Positions 20,679 through 37,910 of a stretch of 64,000 bases of DNA are shown one piece after another. The position numbers and the translations under genes were made by a program. Each line of letters starts with the position of its first letter. Positions within the stretch are counted from its first letter, which is position 1. This DNA comes from Flavobacterium sp. (GTDB lineage: Bacteria > Bacteroidota > Bacteroidia > Flavobacteriales > Flavobacteriaceae), in NCBI RefSeq assembly GCF_024710485.1, contig NZ_JANJUQ010000023.1, positions 1 through 64,000 of the forward strand. Direction: 5' to 3'. The notes beneath the pieces are model-generated. The model saw nothing but the letters and a program-made list of their open reading frames with translations. It was not told the origin of the DNA and made no database searches.

Positions 20679-20687
20679 CGGTATGTC

Positions 20688-20789
20688 TAGCCCCGATGGG
20701 AACGGCATCCTTTTTTAGGATTGGCCTGAGCATTTGTGAAGGCATATCAATCCTGAAAAAGATACAGTGGACAGCGGGAAACAGCTCCT
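20688..20789. repeat. Dispersed repeat family A, long copy
   Basis: Read on the minus strand this starts AGGAGCTG, then TTCCCGCTGTCC, and ends CCCATCGGGGCTA, the same ends as the copy at 10622-10666. The middle holds arms CAATCCT/AGGATTG and a run ATCTTTTTC against GGATTTTTTCC-like sequence, so it can fold. It fills the gap between PBP1A and scoA. Confidence 0.75.
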
Positions 20790-29443: not shown

Positions 29444-30037
29444 CTATCCGTTTTTCATTCGGCTTTTTAAAATGGTTTCTACATCGGTCAATCCGAAACC
29501 TTTGACTTTAAGTAGCAGCAGATAGTGGAACAGCAAATCGGCGGCTTCATTCAGAAACAAATCTTTGTTATTGTCTTTGGCTTCTATGACCAATTCTACT
29601 GCTTCTTCACCTACTTTCTGCGCTATCTTATTGATGCCTTTTTGAAGGAGTGAAGCCACGTAAGAATTCGCATTTTGATTGGCGATTCTGTCCTCAATTA
29701 CTTGTTCCAATTGGTTTAAAAACGGCATTGGCGTTTCGTCTGCAAAACAGGAATTCGTTCCGTTGTGGCACGTTGGTCCGCTTGGAATTACTTTGATTAA
29801 CAAGGTATCTTGGTCGCAATCTTCTTTAATGGAAACGACTTTCAAATAATTTTCGGAAGTTTCGCCTTTAGTCCACAAGCGGTTTTTACTGCGACTGAAA
29901 AAAGTAACTACTTTTTCTTCTTGGGTTTGTCGCAAGGCTGCTTCATTCATATAACCCAGCATCAGCACTTGTCGGGTTTGATAGTCCTGAATAATGGCCG
30001 GAACCAAGCCGTTCGTTTTGGAAAAATCTATAGTCAT
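29444..30037 (-). CDS. hisIE: Bifunctional phosphoribosyl-AMP cyclohydrolase / phosphoribosyl-ATP pyrophosphatase
   Basis: The N-terminal HisI domain has SKNRLWTKGETSENYL near residue 50 and cysteine/histidine zinc ligands in CDQDTLL and GPTCHNGTNSCF. The C-terminal HisE domain contains the MazG-like helix pattern KVGEEAVELVIEAK and NEAADLLFHYL. It performs steps 2 and 3 of histidine synthesis. It is the last gene of the his operon, overlapping hisF by four bases (ATGA). The fused 197-residue arrangement is common in Bacteroidota. Confidence 0.96.
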   Translation of the reverse strand: MTIDFSKTNGLVPAIIQDYQTRQVLMLGYMNEAALRQTQEEKVVTFFSRSKNRLWTKGETSENYLKVVSIKEDCDQDTLLIKVIPSGPTCHNGTNSCFADETPMPFLNQLEQVIEDRIANQNANSYVASLLQKGINKIAQKVGEEAVELVIEAKDNNKDLFLNEAADLLFHYLLLLKVKGFGLTDVETILKSRMKNG

Positions 30038-30786
30038 CGTACAGGAATATTTCGGGTTTTTAAAAGGGTTTTTAAATAGGGTATAGCGACTTCATTAAAG
30101 TGAAAAATACTGGCTGCCAGTCCGGCACTGACTTCGGTTTGGGTAAACAACTCGATAAAATCATTGGCACTTCCTGCACCACCGGAAGCAATAACCGGAA
30201 TAGTAACGGCTTGGCTTATCGCGTTTGTAATTTCCAAAGCAAAACCGTCTTTAGCACCATCGTTGTTCATAGAGGTTATTAAAAGTTCTCCTGCGCCGAG
30301 TGCTTCAGCCTTTTGAGCCCAATCGATGGCTAAGATTCCGGTCGATTCGGTACCGCCTTTTACAAAAACATACCAATCGTTTTCGACTTTTTTGATGTCG
30401 ATAGCGACCACTACACTTTGGCTCCCGAAAGCTTCGGCGATTTGCGTTATGAGTTTCGGATTAGCCACGGCAGCCGAATTGAGGCTGACTTTATCTGCAC
30501 CGGATTGTAACAATAATTGCGCGTCTTCCACCGATTGAATGCCGCCGCCAACCGTAAACGGAATATTGATTTCTTTGGACAATCGCGTAACCAAATCCAC
30601 CAAAGTTTTGCGACCTTCCAAAGTCGCGCTGATGTCTAAAAACACCAATTCGTCCGCGCCGTTTTTAGAATAAAAGGAAGCTAAGGCTACCGGATTTCCG
30701 GCATCTTTTAGGCCTAAAAACTGAACACCTTTTACCACGCGTCCGTCTTTAATATCCAAACACGGGATGATTCTTTTCTTTAACAT
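30034..30786 (-). CDS. hisF: Imidazole glycerol phosphate synthase, cyclase subunit
   Basis: HisF and HisH form the synthase that makes imidazole glycerol phosphate and AICAR. The (beta/alpha)8 barrel starts [18 protein letters not shown] and has phosphate-binding SGGAGS near 205. Length is 250 residues. Its start codon overlaps hisA's end by seven bases and its stop overlaps hisIE by four. Confidence 0.97.
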
Positions 30787-31493
30787 AATTGGTTTAAGTT
30801 TTCAATTTTAATAGTGCCTTCGTATAAGGCTTTTCCAATGATGGCGCCTTCGCAACCCAGCTTTTTCAACTGTTCCAAATCGGCCAATGTAGTCACGCCG
30901 CCACTGGCAATTAAATTCACTTTGGTCTTTTCCAAAATAGCAGTGTACAATTCGTTTGATGTTCCTTGCAGCATACCATCTTTGGCGATATCGGTGCAAA
31001 TGACTGTCGAAATCCCTTTGGTAACATAGTCGGCTATGTAGTCGACAACGTCCAATTCGGAAGTTTCCTGCCAACCAAAGGTTGCAATCTTTCTATTCAA
31101 ACAATCAGCACCTAAAATGATTTTATCGCTGCCGAATTCGGTTAACCAACTTAAAAATTCAGTCGGATTTTTAGCTGCAATACTGCCGCCGGTGACTTGA
31201 CGAGCGCCGTTTTCAAAAGCGATTTCCAAATCTTTGTGCGACTTTAATCCGCCACCGAAATCAATTTTCAAGTTGGTTTTGGTGGCTATTTGATACAAGA
31301 TTTTATGGTTGACAATGTGGTTGGATTTGGCACCGTCTAAGTCAACTAAATGCAAATATTGTAGGCCGTTGTCTTCAAAATATTGGGCGACTTCCAACGG
31401 ATTCTCATTGTAGATTTTTTGTGTCTTGTAATCGCCTTTGGTCAAACGGACACATTTGCCGTTGATAAGGTCTATAGCCGGTATGATTCTCAT
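30780..31493 (-). CDS. hisA: Phosphoribosylformimino-5-aminoimidazole carboxamide ribotide isomerase
   Basis: It isomerises ProFAR to PRFAR, the substrate of HisF-HisH. The barrel begins [17 protein letters not shown], with the [11 protein letters not shown] and [12 protein letters not shown] phosphate motifs. I chose the ATG at 31493, immediately before the conserved barrel start, giving 237 residues; a GTG six codons upstream is possible. It overlaps hisF by seven bases. Confidence 0.96.
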
Positions 31494-31544
31494 GTTTTTA
31501 TTTTTTGCCACGGATTACACTGATTTTCACAAATTATTCCGTGT

Positions 31545-32123
31545 TTATAGTTTTAAAAAATTTAATAAAAGTTGTTCGCCTGCTTGTGATGATTTTTCGG
31601 GATGAAATTGCGTCGCATAAAAATTATCCTTTTGCATCGAAGCGCTAAACGGAACGATATAATCACAAACAGCAGTGGTTTCTTGGCTGACTTCCGCATA
31701 ATAACTGTGAACGAAATAGAAATTTTCTTCGGTTGAAATTCCATTGAACAGAGCAGAATTTAATGCTGAAATAGTATTCCAACCCATATGCGGTACTTTC
31801 AATTTGGGTTCGAATTTCTTTACTCTTGCGTCAAAAATCCCTAAACATTCCGTGTTGCCTTCTTCCGAAAAACGACACAACAATTGTTGTCCAAGACAAA
31901 TGCCTAAAACCGGTTGTTTGAGGTTTTTAATCACTTCGTCTAACCCTTTTTCTTTTAAGTATTGCATGGCTGAACTCGCTTCGCCAACGCCCGGAAAAAT
32001 CACTTTTTCGGCTTGTTGGATGAGTTTCGGGTTATCGGTTACTATACTCGAATACCCCAATCTTTCCAAGGCATTTTGCACGGAAGTAATATTGCCCGCG
32101 TTATATTTTACTATGGCTATCAT
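31545..32123 (-). CDS. hisH: Imidazole glycerol phosphate synthase, glutamine amidotransferase subunit
   Basis: HisH hydrolyses glutamine and sends ammonia to HisF. The class I amidotransferase triad is visible: Cys76 in [10 protein letters not shown] and the His/Glu pair in [13 protein letters not shown]. Length is 192 residues. It overlaps hisB by four bases (ATGA) and is separated from hisA by 51 bases, a stretch of which reads like a dispersed GCCACGGATTACAC element. Confidence 0.97.
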
Positions 32124-33211
32124 AAGATTCCTTTGGTGCTTGGGATGGTATTAGTTCCGTCTTTTTGTACGGCCATTTTTATCGCTTTTGCGAAGGCTTT
32201 GAAAATCGATTCGATTTTGTGGTGCTCGTTGTTGCCCTCGGCTTTGATGTTCAAGTTGCATTGCGCGCCATCGCAAAACGATTTGAAAAAGTGCGAGAAC
32301 ATTTCGGTAGGCATTTCACCGATTTTTTCTCGGGTAAATTTTGCGTTCCAAACCAACCACGAACGACCGCCGAAATCCAAAGCCACTTGCGCCAAACAAT
32401 CGTCCATAGGCAACAGAAACCCGTAACGATTGATGCCTTTTTTGCTTCCTAAAGCTTGTGAAAAAGCGATGCCCAAAGCGATGCCGACGTCTTCAATGGT
32501 GTGGTGTTCATCGACATACAAATCGCCGTTGACTTGAATGCTGAGGTTGATATTCCCGTGTTTGGCAATTTGGTCGAGCATGTGGTCAAAAAAGCCTAAA
32601 CCGGTAGTGATGTTACTTTTCCCGTTCCCATCTAAATTGATTGCGATGGCGATTTCGGTTTCTTTTGTTGTTCGATTCACCGTAGCAGTTCGCGGCTGAT
32701 TTTTCAAAAACCGGTAAATGCTTTCCCAAGAAGTAGTGGTTAAAACGGCTTTGTCATTGGTTTCCGCCGAAATAAAAATGGCTTGACTTCCTAAATTTTG
32801 TGCCAATTGAATATCAGTAATTCGATCGCCTATGACAAAGGAGTTTTTCAAATCGTAGTTGCCTTTGACGTACTGTTGCAGTAAAGCCGTTCCCGGTTTT
32901 CGGGTTGGTAAATTTTGTTCGGGTAACGAAACGTCGATAATCACATCGGCAAATCGGATGCCTTCGTTTTCAAAGGCTTTGAGCATCTTGTTGTGCGCCG
33001 GCCAAAAGGTGTTTTCCGGAAACGAAGCGGTTCCCATGCCGTCTTGGTTGGTGACCATGACCAATTCGTATTCGAGTTCTTGAGCAATGCGCGACAAGTA
33101 TTGAAATACCTTAGGATAAAACTCGAGTTTCTCCAAAGAGTCGACTTGAAAATCAATCGGCGGTTCCACGATTAACGTACCGTCTCGGTCTATAAATAAT
33201 ACTTTTTTCAT
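32120..33211 (-). CDS. hisB: Bifunctional histidinol-phosphatase / imidazoleglycerol-phosphate dehydratase
   Basis: The N-terminal HAD phosphatase has FIDRDGTLI at residues 6-14 and carries out histidinol-phosphate dephosphorylation. The C-terminal dehydratase has paired histidine motifs, HHTIEDVGI and NEHHKIES, that bind manganese. At 363 residues it is the fused form of enterobacteria and many Bacteroidota. Both ends overlap its neighbours by four bases, consistent with translational coupling. Confidence 0.97.
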
Positions 33212-34221
33212 ATAGTAACTAATTGAAGTGCGTAAAGTAATTGCTGGTTTTCTTGCGGTGTTCCGACGGTAATTCTGATGGTATCTTTCACCACCGAACT
33301 GCGATTGCGGGTGATGATTTGTTGTTCGATTAACTGCTCGTAAATCGCGGTAGCATTTTCCATTTCAACCAATAAAAAATTGGCTTCCGACGGATAAACT
33401 TGGGTTATGAAATCCAGTTGTTGCAACGCATTTTTAAGCTTTTCGCGTTCCGATTTTAAAATTTTCACGGTGTTTTGAAATTGAGTTTCATCGGCTAAAG
33501 CTTTTACCGCGGCTTCCTGGTTCAGTTGACTGATGTTGTAAGGCGGTTTTACTTTTTGCAGTACAGAAATAATCGTTTCATTGGCATACGCTACGCCGAT
33601 ACGAGCCGCCGCCAATCCACGCGCTTTGCTGAAAGTTTGCGACACGATTAAATTGGGATACTTCTGAATTTTGGGTACCAATGAAGGTTGCTCACTGAAG
33701 TCGATGTATGCTTCATCCAGAAAGACAATGCCTTTGAAATTTTCAATAATGTATTCCAGATTTTCTAATGTATTTCCGGTCGGATTGTTGGGCGAACACA
33801 GGTATAAAATTTTCGCGTTTTGGGCTAAAATCGCTTCTGTATTCAACTGAAAATTTTCGGTTAACGGAATGGGAACGATTTTCAAATTATTGATGTTAGC
33901 ATACACTTCATACATGCCGTAAGTGGGCGGACAAATGATGATTTGATCTTGACCGGGTTCGCCAAAAACACGTTGTACCAAGTCGATGATCTCGTCGCTG
34001 CCGTTGCCGATTAAGATGTTTTGGATGCCGACTTTTTGTTGACCGCTTAAGATTTGTTTCAAGCGCCATTGGTACGGATCGGGATAGCGATTTAAATTGC
34101 CGTACGGATTTTCGTTGGCGTCTAAAAAGATACCTTGATTGCTTTTGTATTCGTCTCTGGCACTGGAATAGGGTGTGAGCAAAAGAATATTTTTTCGAAT
34201 GAGATTAGTCATATTATCCAT
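33208..34221 (-). CDS. hisC: Histidinol-phosphate aminotransferase
   Basis: This PLP-dependent enzyme makes histidinol phosphate from imidazole acetol phosphate. The Schiff-base lysine is Lys199 in SQTFSKARG, and SPNNPTGN and [10 protein letters not shown] are family motifs. Length is 337 residues from the first ATG at 34221, which overlaps hisD by eight bases; the second ATG at 34212 would leave one base between them and is equally possible. It overlaps hisB by four bases. Confidence 0.96.
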
Positions 34222-35503
34222 TTTGTAATTTTTTTAATCGAATAGTTACCGCGTTTTTATGTGCGTCTAATTGTTCGGCTTCTGCCATAATTTCAATCGT
34301 TGGACCAAGGTTTTGCAAGCCTTTCGAAGTGAGTTTTTGAAACGTAATTTTTTTGACAAAACTGTCTAAGGAAACGCCGCTGTAATTTTTGGCAAAACCA
34401 TTAGTAGGTAAGGTGTGATTGGTGCCGCTGGCATAATCTCCGGCGCTTTCACAGCTGTAATTACCTAAGAAAACCGAGCCGGCATTTTCGATAAAACACA
34501 GCATGTTTTCTGCATCTTCTACCGCTAGAATCAAGTGTTCCGGAGCGTAAAAATTGCTGAAAGCAATGCTTTGTTGGATGCTGTCAAAAACAATGGCACG
34601 ACTGTTTTCCAAAGCTTTTTCAACTACGGATTGCCGCGGTAAAACGGCTTTTTGTTGCTCGATAGCCGAAGTTACTTTTGCGACAATAGCTTCTGAATTG
34701 GTTACCAAGACAACCTGGCTATCACCACCGTGTTCCGCTTGGGAAAGCAAATCGGAAGCTACAAAATCAGGGTCGCAACTGTCATCGGCAATCACCAAAA
34801 GTTCACTCGGACCGGCCGGTAAATCGATGGCAGTACCTAATTGTTGGGCGTATTGTTTGGCTGCCGTAACAAACTGATTTCCGGGGCCGAAGAGTTTTTC
34901 TACTTTGGGAATATCATCCGTTCCGAAAGTCATGGCGGCGATGGCTTGGATCCCGCCGACTTTATAAATTTGCGTCACACCGGTCAATTGCGCCGCATAC
35001 AAAATGGCCGGATTGAGATTGCCGTTTTTATCGGGTGGCGAACACAAGATGATGTTTTGACAACCGGCAATTTGAGCCGGAATGGCCAACATTAAAACCG
35101 TAGAAAAAAGCGGTGCTGTTCCGCCCGGAATGTAAATTCCAATAGTATTAATTGCCCGACTTTCGCGCCAGCAAAACACACCCGATGTGGTTTCTATTTT
35201 CTTCGAAATTTCTTTTTGCGATTGGTGAAAGCGTTTGATGTTTTCGGCAGCGGTTTGTATCGCTTTTTTTAAATCGGTCGGCACTTCAGCTACCGCTTTT
35301 TCTATTTCAGTTTCGGAAACTTTTAAGCTGTCCAAAGTCACACCATCGAAATATTGGGTGTACTTTTTCACCGCTTTACTGCCGTTTTTTTCAATGTCGT
35401 TGAAAATCGACTTTACGGTTTCGTTCAAATCGGCTGAGGAAACTGTTTGGCGTTGGGCTAAGGTTGACCATAGTTCCTGACTTGGGTTGAGGTATGTTTT
35501 CAT
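34214..35503 (-). CDS. hisD: Histidinol dehydrogenase
   Basis: The enzyme oxidises histidinol to histidine in two NAD-dependent steps with a zinc ion. Conserved blocks include IYIPGGTAPLFSTVLMLA, AGPSELLVIAD, DLLSQAEHG and HTLPTNGFAKNYSG. The 429-residue protein starts at ATG 35503. A longer frame begins in the dispersed repeat upstream (ATG at 35554) and is rejected because its 17 extra codons come from repeat DNA. The preceding gene hisG is separated by 122 bases. Confidence 0.96.
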   Translation of the reverse strand: MKTYLNPSQELWSTLAQRQTVSSADLNETVKSIFNDIEKNGSKAVKKYTQYFDGVTLDSLKVSETEIEKAVAEVPTDLKKAIQTAAENIKRFHQSQKEISKKIETTSGVFCWRESRAINTIGIYIPGGTAPLFSTVLMLAIPAQIAGCQNIILCSPPDKNGNLNPAILYAAQLTGVTQIYKVGGIQAIAAMTFGTDDIPKVEKLFGPGNQFVTAAKQYAQQLGTAIDLPAGPSELLVIADDSCDPDFVASDLLSQAEHGGDSQVVLVTNSEAIVAKVTSAIEQQKAVLPRQSVVEKALENSRAIVFDSIQQSIAFSNFYAPEHLILAVEDAENMLCFIENAGSVFLGNYSCESAGDYASGTNHTLPTNGFAKNYSGVSLDSFVKKITFQKLTSKGLQNLGPTIEIMAEAEQLDAHKNAVTIRLKKLQNG

Positions 35504-35526
35504 GTTTTTAGTGTTAAATTTAATTT

Positions 35527-35612
35527 TGTCATTTCGACGAAGGAGAAATCGCATAATGAGATTGCTAAGTCAATTCGCCATCGATAGTGTCTTTGTCAAT
35601 TGGAATGACAAA
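35527..35612. repeat. Dispersed palindromic repeat family B, copy 2, inside the his operon
   Basis: TGTCATTTCGACGAAGGAG with AAATCGCATAA on the left and CAATTGGAATGACAAA on the right form an imperfect inverted repeat similar to copies at 11080 and 60862. It lies between hisG and hisD and would be transcribed with the operon. Confidence 0.75.
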
Positions 35613-35625
35613 TAGGCTTTGACTA

Positions 35626-36483
35626 TTAGCGAATCATTTTTTCAATCGGAATAATTAAAATGCCTTCGGCGCCAAGGGTTTTGAGTTGTTCGATGCGATT
35701 CCAATAATCATCTTCCTGAATCACCGAATGCAAACTGCTCCAGCCTTCGTTGACTAAAGGCAAAACGGTAGGCGATTTCATGCCCGGCAGTATGGCACAA
35801 ATGCTTTCGATAGCAGAATTGGGTGCGTTGAGTAAGATGTATTTGTTTTGTTTCCCTTCGCGCACCGATTGGATTCGGAACAATAATTTGTTTAGGATGG
35901 CTTGGGATGCTTCGGTTACATTCGCATTGGCAATGAGTACGGCTTCGCTTTTCACGACGGTCTCCACTTCTTTTAAACCGTTCATCAACAATGTACTTCC
36001 GGTGCTGACAATGTCGAATACGGCATCGGCTAAACCAATACTGGTGGCAATTTCAACACTGCCGCTGATTTCTTCGATGAAGACTTGGATGTTGTTTCGA
36101 TTGAAAAAATCAAGTAGGATTTTAGGATAACTGGTGGCAATTCGCTTGCCTTCGAAATACGTTAAATCGGTATAGCTTTCGTCTTTCGGAATGGCCAAAG
36201 ACATGCGACAACCGGCAAAACCCAGTTGTTGAATTACTTTTACATCTTTGCCTTTCTCCCAAACTTCATTTTCTCCCAAAATACCAATGTCGGCTACGCC
36301 TTGCTCCACGTATTGCGGGATGTCATCGTCGCGCAGGAATAGAATTTCAACAGGGAAATTTTGGGCAACGGCTTTAAGTTTTCGTTCGCCATTGGAGATT
36401 TTGATGCCGCACTCTTCCAAGAGCTGGAGAGACTTTTCGCTTAAGCGGCCGCTTTTTTGAATAGCAATTTTTAAGGTACTCAT
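35626..36483 (-). CDS. hisG: ATP phosphoribosyltransferase (long form)
   Basis: The first enzyme of histidine synthesis joins ATP and PRPP. It is the long form: a catalytic domain of about 220 residues with LKIAIQKSGRLSEKS at the start and the PRPP site region VFDIVSTGSTLLMNGL near 165, plus a C-terminal regulatory domain in the last 70 residues (with GAEGILIIPIEKMI at the end) that usually binds histidine for feedback inhibition. Length 285. It is the first structural gene after the his leader. Confidence 0.96.
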   Translation of the reverse strand: MSTLKIAIQKSGRLSEKSLQLLEECGIKISNGERKLKAVAQNFPVEILFLRDDDIPQYVEQGVADIGILGENEVWEKGKDVKVIQQLGFAGCRMSLAIPKDESYTDLTYFEGKRIATSYPKILLDFFNRNNIQVFIEEISGSVEIATSIGLADAVFDIVSTGSTLLMNGLKEVETVVKSEAVLIANANVTEASQAILNKLLFRIQSVREGKQNKYILLNAPNSAIESICAILPGMKSPTVLPLVNEGWSSLHSVIQEDDYWNRIEQLKTLGAEGILIIPIEKMIR

Positions 36484-36501
36484 TTTTAATTAGGTATAAA
36501 A

Positions 36502-36563
36502 TCTGAGTATATCGCGAAGTGTATAAATACAATAAACCCGTCTTGATATACTCAGACGGGTTT
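36502..36563 (-). promoter_or_regulatory. his operon attenuator hairpins
   Basis: Read on the minus strand, stem A is AAACCCGTCT (36563-36554) with AGACGGGTTT (36543-36534), a ten-base stem with loop. Stem B is TCTGAGTATATC (36556-36545) with GATATACTCAGA (36513-36502), a 12-base perfect stem followed by TTTTAT. The two stems share bases 36545-36556 and cannot form together. The segment 36589-36596 (TGATGTAT in the transcript) can pair with 36551-36544 (GTATATCA), allowing two GU pairs, and also with the His-codon run. This is the layout of a classical attenuator; the fold is inferred. Confidence 0.7.
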
Positions 36564-36596
36564 TGAATTATGTTTTTGATTAGCTACAATACATCA

Positions 36597-36653
36597 TTAA
36601 CTCGCCTGGTTGCAAGAATGATGATGATGTAATTGTGCGATAATCGTGTTCAT
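36597..36653 (-). CDS. hisL: his operon leader peptide
   Basis: A short frame not expected to be enzymatic: ATG AAC ACG ATT ATC GCA CAA TTA then four CAT histidine codons, then TCT TGC AAC CAG GCG AGT and TAA, an 18-residue peptide (MNTIIAQLHHHHSCNQAS). It begins about 12 bases after the likely transcription start and is 113 bases upstream of hisG. Four consecutive His codons directly upstream of a his operon are the hallmark of a leader peptide that senses charged tRNA(His). The hairpin set downstream fits this. Identity rests on sequence and position, not on a family match. Confidence 0.85.
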   Translation of the reverse strand: MNTIIAQLHHHHSCNQAS

Positions 36654-36671
36654 GTTTTTATTTTAATGCCA

Positions 36672-36679
36672 CAAAACTA
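36672..36679 (-). promoter_or_regulatory. his operon promoter -7 element
   Basis: The minus strand reads TAGTTTTG, matching TAnnTTTG, 19 bases upstream of the leader-peptide ATG. Candidate -33 TTG elements are at 36694-36696 (14-base spacer) and 36704-36706 (24-base spacer); neither gives an ideal spacing. 36680-36740 contains nothing else that I recognise. Confidence 0.6.
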
Positions 36680-36740
36680 TGGAGAAGTTTTGACAACGAA
36701 ACGCAATTTTATAAAGTTTAACATTTGTTTAGAATGGATT

Positions 36741-37880
36741 TCAGCGGAAGATTCTGCGGATAAGCGCTATAATGAAGAGCCTTTTCGGGCAACGCCAAAT
36801 GACTTGTAAATCTTCGGCAAAGGAAGTTTCTTCATCCAAAAACTTAAAGATAACGGCAGGATTTCCCTTTTGAAACATAGCCGAAAAAATGGTCGAACCC
36901 AAGTGGTTTTTTCGGTCTAAAATATCCAAAAGCAATAAGTCGTAAAACCAGAATTTATTGATTTTGTGAAATTTTGTTAAGTCGTTTTCCTTTAACAAAA
37001 AGGCCGTTAAGGCTTTCGATTTCTTCACGGTGTTTTTAAACGTATAACCTGTGCTGGCTTTGGTCCAACCGCCTGCTGCCCCTATATTTAGGATGTTTTT
37101 GCTGTTGTTTTTCCAAAACGGATAACAGGTCATCGGAATGTTGCCTTGTTCTTTTTCTATTAATTCGTAATTCGTAATTCCTAATTTTTCAATGTACTTC
37201 TGAATTTCTGATTCGTATTCTTCCTTGGGTAATAAGTCTTTGGAGAACAAAGTGTATTCCAATAAGGCTTCGGTTTCGGAGGTTGGCAACACGTACATGA
37301 ATCGCGTATTGCCACGTTGTTCCACAGAAAAATCCATGAAAGTCGCACAATCGGTAGTGAAAACAGGTTCTTTACTTTTGATAAACCAACCGATAAAGTG
37401 TTGGTGTAGAAACGGAAATTTCGATTGATTATCCACTAGATTCGGACTAAAAATCGAATTAAAAATTTGATTGCAGGTAAAACTTTCATTTTTGGTTTTA
37501 ACCACACAATGGTGTCTTAATTCTTGAAAATCGAGCACTTTTTGGTTGAGGAAAGTGATGTTGTCTTCTTTGGCGATTAAGTCGAAAACACGCTTGTAAA
37601 AATCCAAGCCGTTCACCATTTTGTATTCGTAAGGTTGGAGATTTAGGCGTCTTTCAAACGATTCGTTTTTGAACCAAGCGGCTTGCCATTTGGCAAAGGC
37701 TAAATCGTCAAACCATGTTTTATCGTCCCAAAAACACCAAGTGCGGTCGTTGGTTTTTTTCGAATTTTCGTCGATTAGTAAAATGGTTTTGTCTTTGAAT
37801 TTTCCGGACAGTACCATTTCATAAACGGTCATTAGTGCGGATAATCCGGCGCCGGTAAAGATGTAATGGTAGTGTTTCAT
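36741..37880 (-). CDS. crtY: Lycopene beta-cyclase
   Basis: It converts lycopene to beta-carotene. The N-terminal FAD-type site is YIFTGAGLSALMTVYE, followed by the ILLIDENSKKTNDRTWCFWDD motif region typical of CrtY. Length is 379 residues from the ATG at 37880; an in-frame TTG adds two codons. No crtI or crtB is adjacent, so the carotenoid genes are split. It fits the yellow pigmentation of Flavobacteriaceae (zeaxanthin type), which is inference. Confidence 0.92.
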   Translation of the reverse strand: MKHYHYIFTGAGLSALMTVYEMVLSGKFKDKTILLIDENSKKTNDRTWCFWDDKTWFDDLAFAKWQAAWFKNESFERRLNLQPYEYKMVNGLDFYKRVFDLIAKEDNITFLNQKVLDFQELRHHCVVKTKNESFTCNQIFNSIFSPNLVDNQSKFPFLHQHFIGWFIKSKEPVFTTDCATFMDFSVEQRGNTRFMYVLPTSETEALLEYTLFSKDLLPKEEYESEIQKYIEKLGITNYELIEKEQGNIPMTCYPFWKNNSKNILNIGAAGGWTKASTGYTFKNTVKKSKALTAFLLKENDLTKFHKINKFWFYDLLLLDILDRKNHLGSTIFSAMFQKGNPAVIFKFLDEETSFAEDLQVIWRCPKRLFIIALIRRIFR

Positions 37881-37910
37881 AGTCAATTAGTGGTAACAAA
37901 TATACTTGAA

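Follow-up and report, generated by a model that had tools for sequence, protein, structure and literature searches.

The his operon in the analyzed window (the whole 64,000-nucleotide stretch of contig NZ_JANJUQ010000023.1 from Flavobacterium sp.) is preceded by a leader that, judging from comparative data and folding models, is very probably a ribosome-sensed attenuator. Such an attenuator had been proposed in a first-pass annotation, and this reading is now supported by a His-run leader that is conserved in relatives, by covarying, mutually exclusive terminator and antiterminator helices, and by the dependence of the predicted folds on ribosome position. Downstream of the terminator, the leader carries a third strand, D, which was unseen by the first-pass annotation and goes beyond the published hisG element. 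We infer, with somewhat better than even confidence, that the attenuator is combined with an action of D on hisG translation, a role suggested by sequence comparison and modeling. The leader ORF and the pairings T5:T3, A1:B, and B:D (Table 1) are supported by comparison of related loci.

Table 1. Positions of the his leader elements and of the his genes in the window
Feature	Position	Strand	Remarks
Bacteroidota-type -7 promoter box, TAGTTTTG	36672..36679	-	Fits TAnnTTTG
Leader ORF, MNTIIAQLHHHHSCNQAS and stop	36597..36653	-	18 codons; ATG at 36653, TAA ending at 36597; conserved in relatives
Four consecutive His codons (CAT)	36618..36629	-	Read from the sequence; CAT/CAC variation across relatives
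Predicted protector hairpin, His codons and AUGAUG 3' of the stop codon	36586..36636	-	Would hide A1 in the untranslated leader; from folding only
A1, antiterminator strand, CAGGCG	36603..36608	-	Within the last leader codons; pairs with the terminator 5' arm
T5, terminator 5' arm, AAACCCGTCT	36554..36563	-	
B, switch strand, GTCTGAGTATATC	36545..36557	-	Comprises the end of T5 and the loop; can pair with A1, T3, and D
T3, terminator 3' arm, AGACGGGTTT	36534..36543	-	
Terminator U tract, TTTATTGTATTTATA	36522..36536	-	Broken
D, third strand, GATATACTCAGAT	36501..36513	-	3' of the terminator; complementary to B, and to the hisG start over 6 bases (TACTCA)
hisG start region, TGAGTA	36477..36482	-	Begins at the U of AUG and extends into codon 3; could be covered by D
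hisG	35626..36483	-	First operon gene; TIGR00070 match above cut-off
hisD, hisC, hisB, hisH, hisA, hisF, hisIE	29444..35554	-	NCBIfam models, above cut-off

The 18-codon frame with four CAT codons was described exactly by the first-pass annotation, which gave no strand; it lies on the minus strand. Its assignment to a position ahead of a his operon was also correct, as all eight genes downstream match the models for hisG, hisD, hisC, hisB, hisH, hisA, hisF, and hisIE above their cut-offs and form a complete hisGDCBHAFIE operon. The annotated promoter box ahead of the frame, which fits what we take to be the -7 promoter consensus, was retained, but the gap between box and leader ATG measures 18 bases instead of about 12. 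Among the cluster representatives, TANNTTTG occurs 8 to 48 bases 5' of the leader ATG in 48/67 sequences, compared to 4.7% of shuffles. The start codon of hisG is located 113 bases downstream of the leader stop codon, and an intrinsic terminator is present in between. In the window, its U tract is degenerate, being interrupted by A and G (TTTTTTGTTTTTAC in the nearest relative, L032), and given this broken tract the terminator of the strain studied may be leaky. A same-strand gene located 5' of the leader (36741-37886) resembles a lycopene cyclase below the model cut-off.

The first-pass annotation had suggested that relatives be checked for a conserved short ORF with a His run, and this check was run, with an outcome that does not refute the attenuator. 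Scanning of the named genomes yielded 526 relatives of hisG, 80 of which were retained as loci, and a frame of fewer than 60 residues with HH was found upstream of hisG in 75 of them. Among 79 further loci of the family, the leader was present in 75 and the terminator core likewise in 75. A His-run leader was not found at five of the 80 named loci (L049, L050, L054, L062, and L111), in which hisG may be under another control. For a comparison with dinucleotide shuffles, the regions 5' of hisG were taken, if 250 bases or longer, from the named loci and from further genomes of the family and the phylum, and a frame was counted if it comprised at most 33 letters including the stop and contained HH and at least three His. 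Such a frame occurs in 173/185 regions versus 55/1,850 shuffles, and an HHH-bearing frame in 161/185 versus 5/1,850. The run codons of the cluster representatives comprise 234 CAT and 30 CAC, an interchange indicating that the His run is retained across synonymous changes. The N-terminal half of the leader peptide is variable, and its last codons (commonly Gln-Ala-Ser or Gln-Ala-Arg) are nearly constant in DNA, as is expected if these codons double as RNA. Two loci with divergent versions were noticed: L003, which has no long His run, yet retains ATCAAGCGG against CCGCTTGAT, and L022, which has a different terminator.

Within the family, 112/199 genomes yielded a total of 113 matches to the A1...B pattern, a strict one that overlooks variant sequences; its reversed control matched 12 times. 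Each matching genome has a single match, except for G024 with two. Thirty matches were fetched, and 29 of them are located directly upstream of hisG. The sole exception (L331, no hisG found nearby) looks like a chance match, and the fetched matches gave no sign of a wider A1...B regulon. In the phylum set, 186/199 loci were used (the other 13 had no ATG close to the aligned start); 166 of the 186 have leader and terminator according to the set rules, 8 have the frame without a terminator, and 12 have no frame. The loci from other families of the class and other classes of the phylum (L112 to L173) show many His-run leaders with terminators, and the leader end frequently provides a complementary strand. 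Their terminator codes are unrelated (GGCTTACC/GGTAAGCC or CCCCG types), which suggests repeated rewiring of one attenuator. Strand D was not recognized in these other terminator types, as judged by scores and by eye without a significance test. A His leader that is widespread in Bacteroidota and has its own pairing code constitutes a ready comparative system.

The covariation alignment comprised 58 of the 70 cluster representatives; those with no listed leader, with a leader reaching past the terminator, or with a terminator-ATG distance outside 38 to 70 were omitted. In these 58 sequences, 94.2% of the cells are paired for T5:T3, 87.8% for A1:B, 82.0% for B:D, and 74.7% for D:start, and changes on both sides numbered 34, 22, 53, and 29 versus shuffled means of 11.8, 10.0, 17.3, and 15.5, respectively. 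Sliding the partner by a single column lowered pairing to 38 to 59% for all four helices. Counts of double-change pairs were matched in 10/500 shuffles for T5:T3 and in 64/500 for B:D, the latter not being above the shuffles; neither A1:B, in double-change pairs (311/500) or pair types (139/500), nor D:start, in its two pair counts (263/500 and 285/500), exceeded them. The covariation score of D:start, matched in 26/500 shuffles, likewise did not stand out from them. At single loci, p values of at most 0.05 against shuffled partners were obtained for A1:B in 43/70, for B:D in 48/70, and for the start in 26/68 representatives. Strand swaps between loci reduced complementarity, with z values of 13.4 for B:D, 6.6 for T5:T3, 6.4 for start:spacer, and 4.7 for A1:B; the swap controls with reversed, complemented, or downstream sequences gave -1.9 to 2.3.

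Since kinship inflates swap and shuffle tests, the comparison was repeated on phylogenetically independent pairs chosen on a 175-locus hisG tree. The underlying family set comprised 264/279 loci (those without an ATG, without a match, or with an identical stretch were left out), including 202 with the CCGYYTGA core, of which 175 are in the tree. For B:D, the own combination was better in 47 of 63 independent pairs, worse in 5, and tied in 11 (sign p 1.3e-9), and the pairing is regarded as firm on comparative grounds. For A1:B, the corresponding numbers were 27, 11, and 27 (sign p 0.014), which is good support for the proposed pairing. D:start is moderately supported, with 31 better, 17 worse, and 12 ties in 60 pairs over 15 bases (sign p 0.059, Wilcoxon p 0.013) and 32, 16, and 14 over 18 bases (sign p 0.029, Wilcoxon p 0.0087). 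Six controls with downstream windows gave sign p values of 0.22 to 1 for D:start, and the reversed, complemented, and reverse-complemented start controls gave 0.23, 0.49, and 0.79. One control deviated in the opposite direction, namely complemented B versus spacer (21 better, 37 worse, 5 ties; p 0.048). A resemblance of B to the hisG start gave z 4.4 in swaps but did not survive the use of independent pairs (22 better, 19 worse, 21 ties), and hence B is not claimed here to be a copy of the start in every lineage.

The relation of D to its two partners was resolved further at the level of loci and positions. The B:D score is at least 18 in 148/202 loci, and D is weak or absent in the other 54. 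At the 158 positions where B and the start differ, D fits only B in 77, only the start in 17, both in 51, and neither in 13, the register being set by B. A test of a single position of D against codon 4 of hisG was significant (Fisher p 5e-4), but on the tree it traces back to about four changes. Several loci with an unusual hisG start carry a fitting D, e.g., L253 (start ATGACTAAAATC, D TGATTTTAGTT, and a B with ACTAAAATC), L223 (start ATGAGCATT, D ATGCTCA), L106 (start ATGAATAAA, D TTTATTCA), and L079 (start ATGAATACATTA); in L182, the start ATGAGTAT is accompanied by D ATACTCAT. Counter-cases are L085 and, at the set cut-offs, 56/202 loci in which D fits B and the start score is low, and in the window itself D:start amounts to 6 bp only. 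Two other functions of D were considered and rejected: a second terminator, given that at least five T within the eight bases after D were present in only 19/148 loci, and a classical antiterminator, given that D is transcribed later than the terminator.

In folding predictions of the RNA before T3 is made, the mean probability of A1:B (n = 67) was 0.01 with the ribosome at the stop codon, 0.93 with the ribosome stalled where the His run begins, and 0.41 for ribosome-free RNA; the corresponding values for the window were 0.00, 0.86, and 0.00. The hiding of A1 by the protector hairpin, as predicted for the untranslated leader of the window, is therefore not general, and termination is not the default in relatives whose leader is untranslated. 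Shuffling of the sequence that separates the stall site from the terminator still left an upstream pairing of B of 0.49, versus 0.95 for the native sequence. Equilibrium folding of the RNA up to and including the terminator showed no switching, since the terminator prevailed whatever the state of the ribosome (P 0.97, 0.92, and 0.97). As the terminator outcompetes A1:B once T3 exists, antitermination must be kinetic, and the order of synthesis matters. Mean pairing of the hisG start with the spacer was 0.52 with the terminator closed and 0.32 with T3 unavailable, and B takes the spacer in the latter state (0.36 versus 0.00). A drop of start:spacer pairing by more than 0.1 on opening of the terminator was predicted for 49% of 68 loci; when the spacers were shuffled or swapped, the share was 11% or 26%, respectively. 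A rise was predicted for 3% of the loci, and for 13% (shuffled) and 8% (swapped) in these controls. In the window, start:spacer pairing fell from 0.67 to 0.02, but overall start pairing merely from 0.68 to 0.63, which is explained by a local fold within hisG that still covers part of the start.

The proposed mechanism would operate as follows. If histidine is plentiful, the ribosome would reach the leader stop codon and cover A1, T5:T3 would form, and transcription would end; in transcripts escaping termination, B would be held in the closed hairpin, and D would remain available to cover the hisG start codon. If histidine is scarce, the ribosome would stall on the His codons, A1:B would form before T3 is made, and RNA polymerase would read through; D would then invade B via the loop bases left free by A1, and the hisG start codon would be released. 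In a strict version, to which we give slightly less than an even chance, B serves as a decoy of the hisG start region and competes with the real start for the antisense strand D, so that a stalled ribosome would open both transcription and translation. A decoy switch would suit bacteria in which translation begins with little Shine-Dalgarno pairing. If D controls the start codon, the leader would represent a ribosome-sensed switch that governs transcription as well as translation, and if the decoy reading is true, two levels would be governed by a single switch strand that is spread through Flavobacteriaceae and their relatives.

The main competitor is a plain ribosome-sensed transcription attenuator, in which B:D is just structural in the readthrough mRNA, for example as a stabilizing 5' hairpin or as a block to re-forming of the terminator, and D exerts no translational control. 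We regard it as unlikely, though by no means negligible. In its favor, A1:B and T5:T3 are supported independently of D, no D was recognized alongside leader, A1, and terminator where the terminator is of one of the other types seen in the phylum, and D follows B more closely than the start codon. A stabilizing hairpin, however, has no need of the very strand that terminator and antiterminator have in common; further points against this reading are that the end of D lies 13 to 24 bases 5' of the ATG in 129 of the 148 loci with a high B:D score, and that D:start outscores the downstream controls.

An action in trans was considered by analogy, since the trp leader of Sinorhizobium provides an attenuator sRNA that acts in trans. 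Here, the loop of the terminated leader RNA (10 bases in the window, GAGUAUAUCA) would form a kissing contact with D on full-length hisG mRNA, which would thereby be repressed. The long loop of the window, complementary to D over 9 bases, fits such a scheme, but the predicted terminator loop has at most 8 bases in 127/166 loci, and the complement of D reaches into the closed stem, making a trans action very improbable. It is even less probable that the frame is untranslated and the conserved region another structured RNA switch with incidental His codons; the strong structure of the leader RNA (z -5.3) speaks for this reading, but CAT and CAC interchange inside the runs, and the His run stands before hisG even where the terminator sequences are unrelated. 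A chance ORF, conceivable for a frame of just 18 codons, is refuted by the 173/185 upstream regions versus 55/1,850 shuffles and can practically be dismissed. The attenuator with D acting on the hisG start remains the reading that we favor.

Attenuation in response to amino acids is a textbook mechanism and is known mainly from Proteobacteria and Firmicutes; Vitreschak and others, in a FEMS paper of 2004, reportedly predicted some such attenuators in Bacteroidetes/Chlorobi. One sensor serving two levels is familiar from the trp leader of Bacillus subtilis under TRAP, where a second fold blocks the translation of readthrough transcripts. That system relies on a protein sensor and on blocking of the Shine-Dalgarno sequence, whereas a stalled ribosome and a start-codon strand are proposed here. 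The first-pass annotation regarded the Bacteroidota case as little described, but it has been described in part: a structured element ahead of hisG was reported in 2021 for Flavobacterium psychrophilum, with conservation in other genera of Flavobacteriaceae, together with clues for leader-peptide attenuation ahead of amino acid operons (PMC9723704). It is very probably the same element as the one described here, and the relevant section of that paper gives no anatomy. The attenuator had thus been noticed in part, and strand D and the proposed start-codon lock were not found in the literature searched, which covered few subscription journals. Short leader-peptide-like ORFs are mentioned for Bacteroides in a section of PMC7366714. 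The Firmicutes His attenuators, as outlined in part of PMC9413887, have three to five consecutive His codons, a terminator, and an antiterminator; they belong to another phylum, and that part mentions no third strand.

The Proteobacterial His leader, which is Rfam family RF00514 according to the same part of PMC9413887, shares with the leader studied here the leader peptide with consecutive His codons and, upstream of the his operon, a terminator with an alternative antiterminator, but here A1 lies inside the last leader codons and the third strand D is located 3' of the terminator. RF00514 had no match at the gathering threshold in the window or in the 12 his loci scanned, and it was absent from the ten sub-threshold Rfam matches (E of at most 10) in 36400-36800. 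No Rfam family matched at the leader or at these 12 loci, apart from a tRNA in L142. The Bacteroid-trp leader (RF01692; listed in the relevant part of PMC2864571) is similar in belonging to the same phylum and in having a run of Trp codons and a terminator before trpE; it differs in amino acid and sequence, and the 12 his loci lacked a match to it. Nine strong trpE loci were available for comparison, three of which were analyzed, and WWW leaders were found upstream of trpE in all three (L202, L204, and L208). Both trp loci scanned, L202 and L204, match Bacteroid-trp. The start chosen for L208 is probably wrong, so that D was judged in the two full spacers of L202 and L204, where none was seen by eye. 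Elsewhere in the window, a Flavo-1 RNA (RF01705) is located at 20685-20785 on the plus strand with 67.6 bits.
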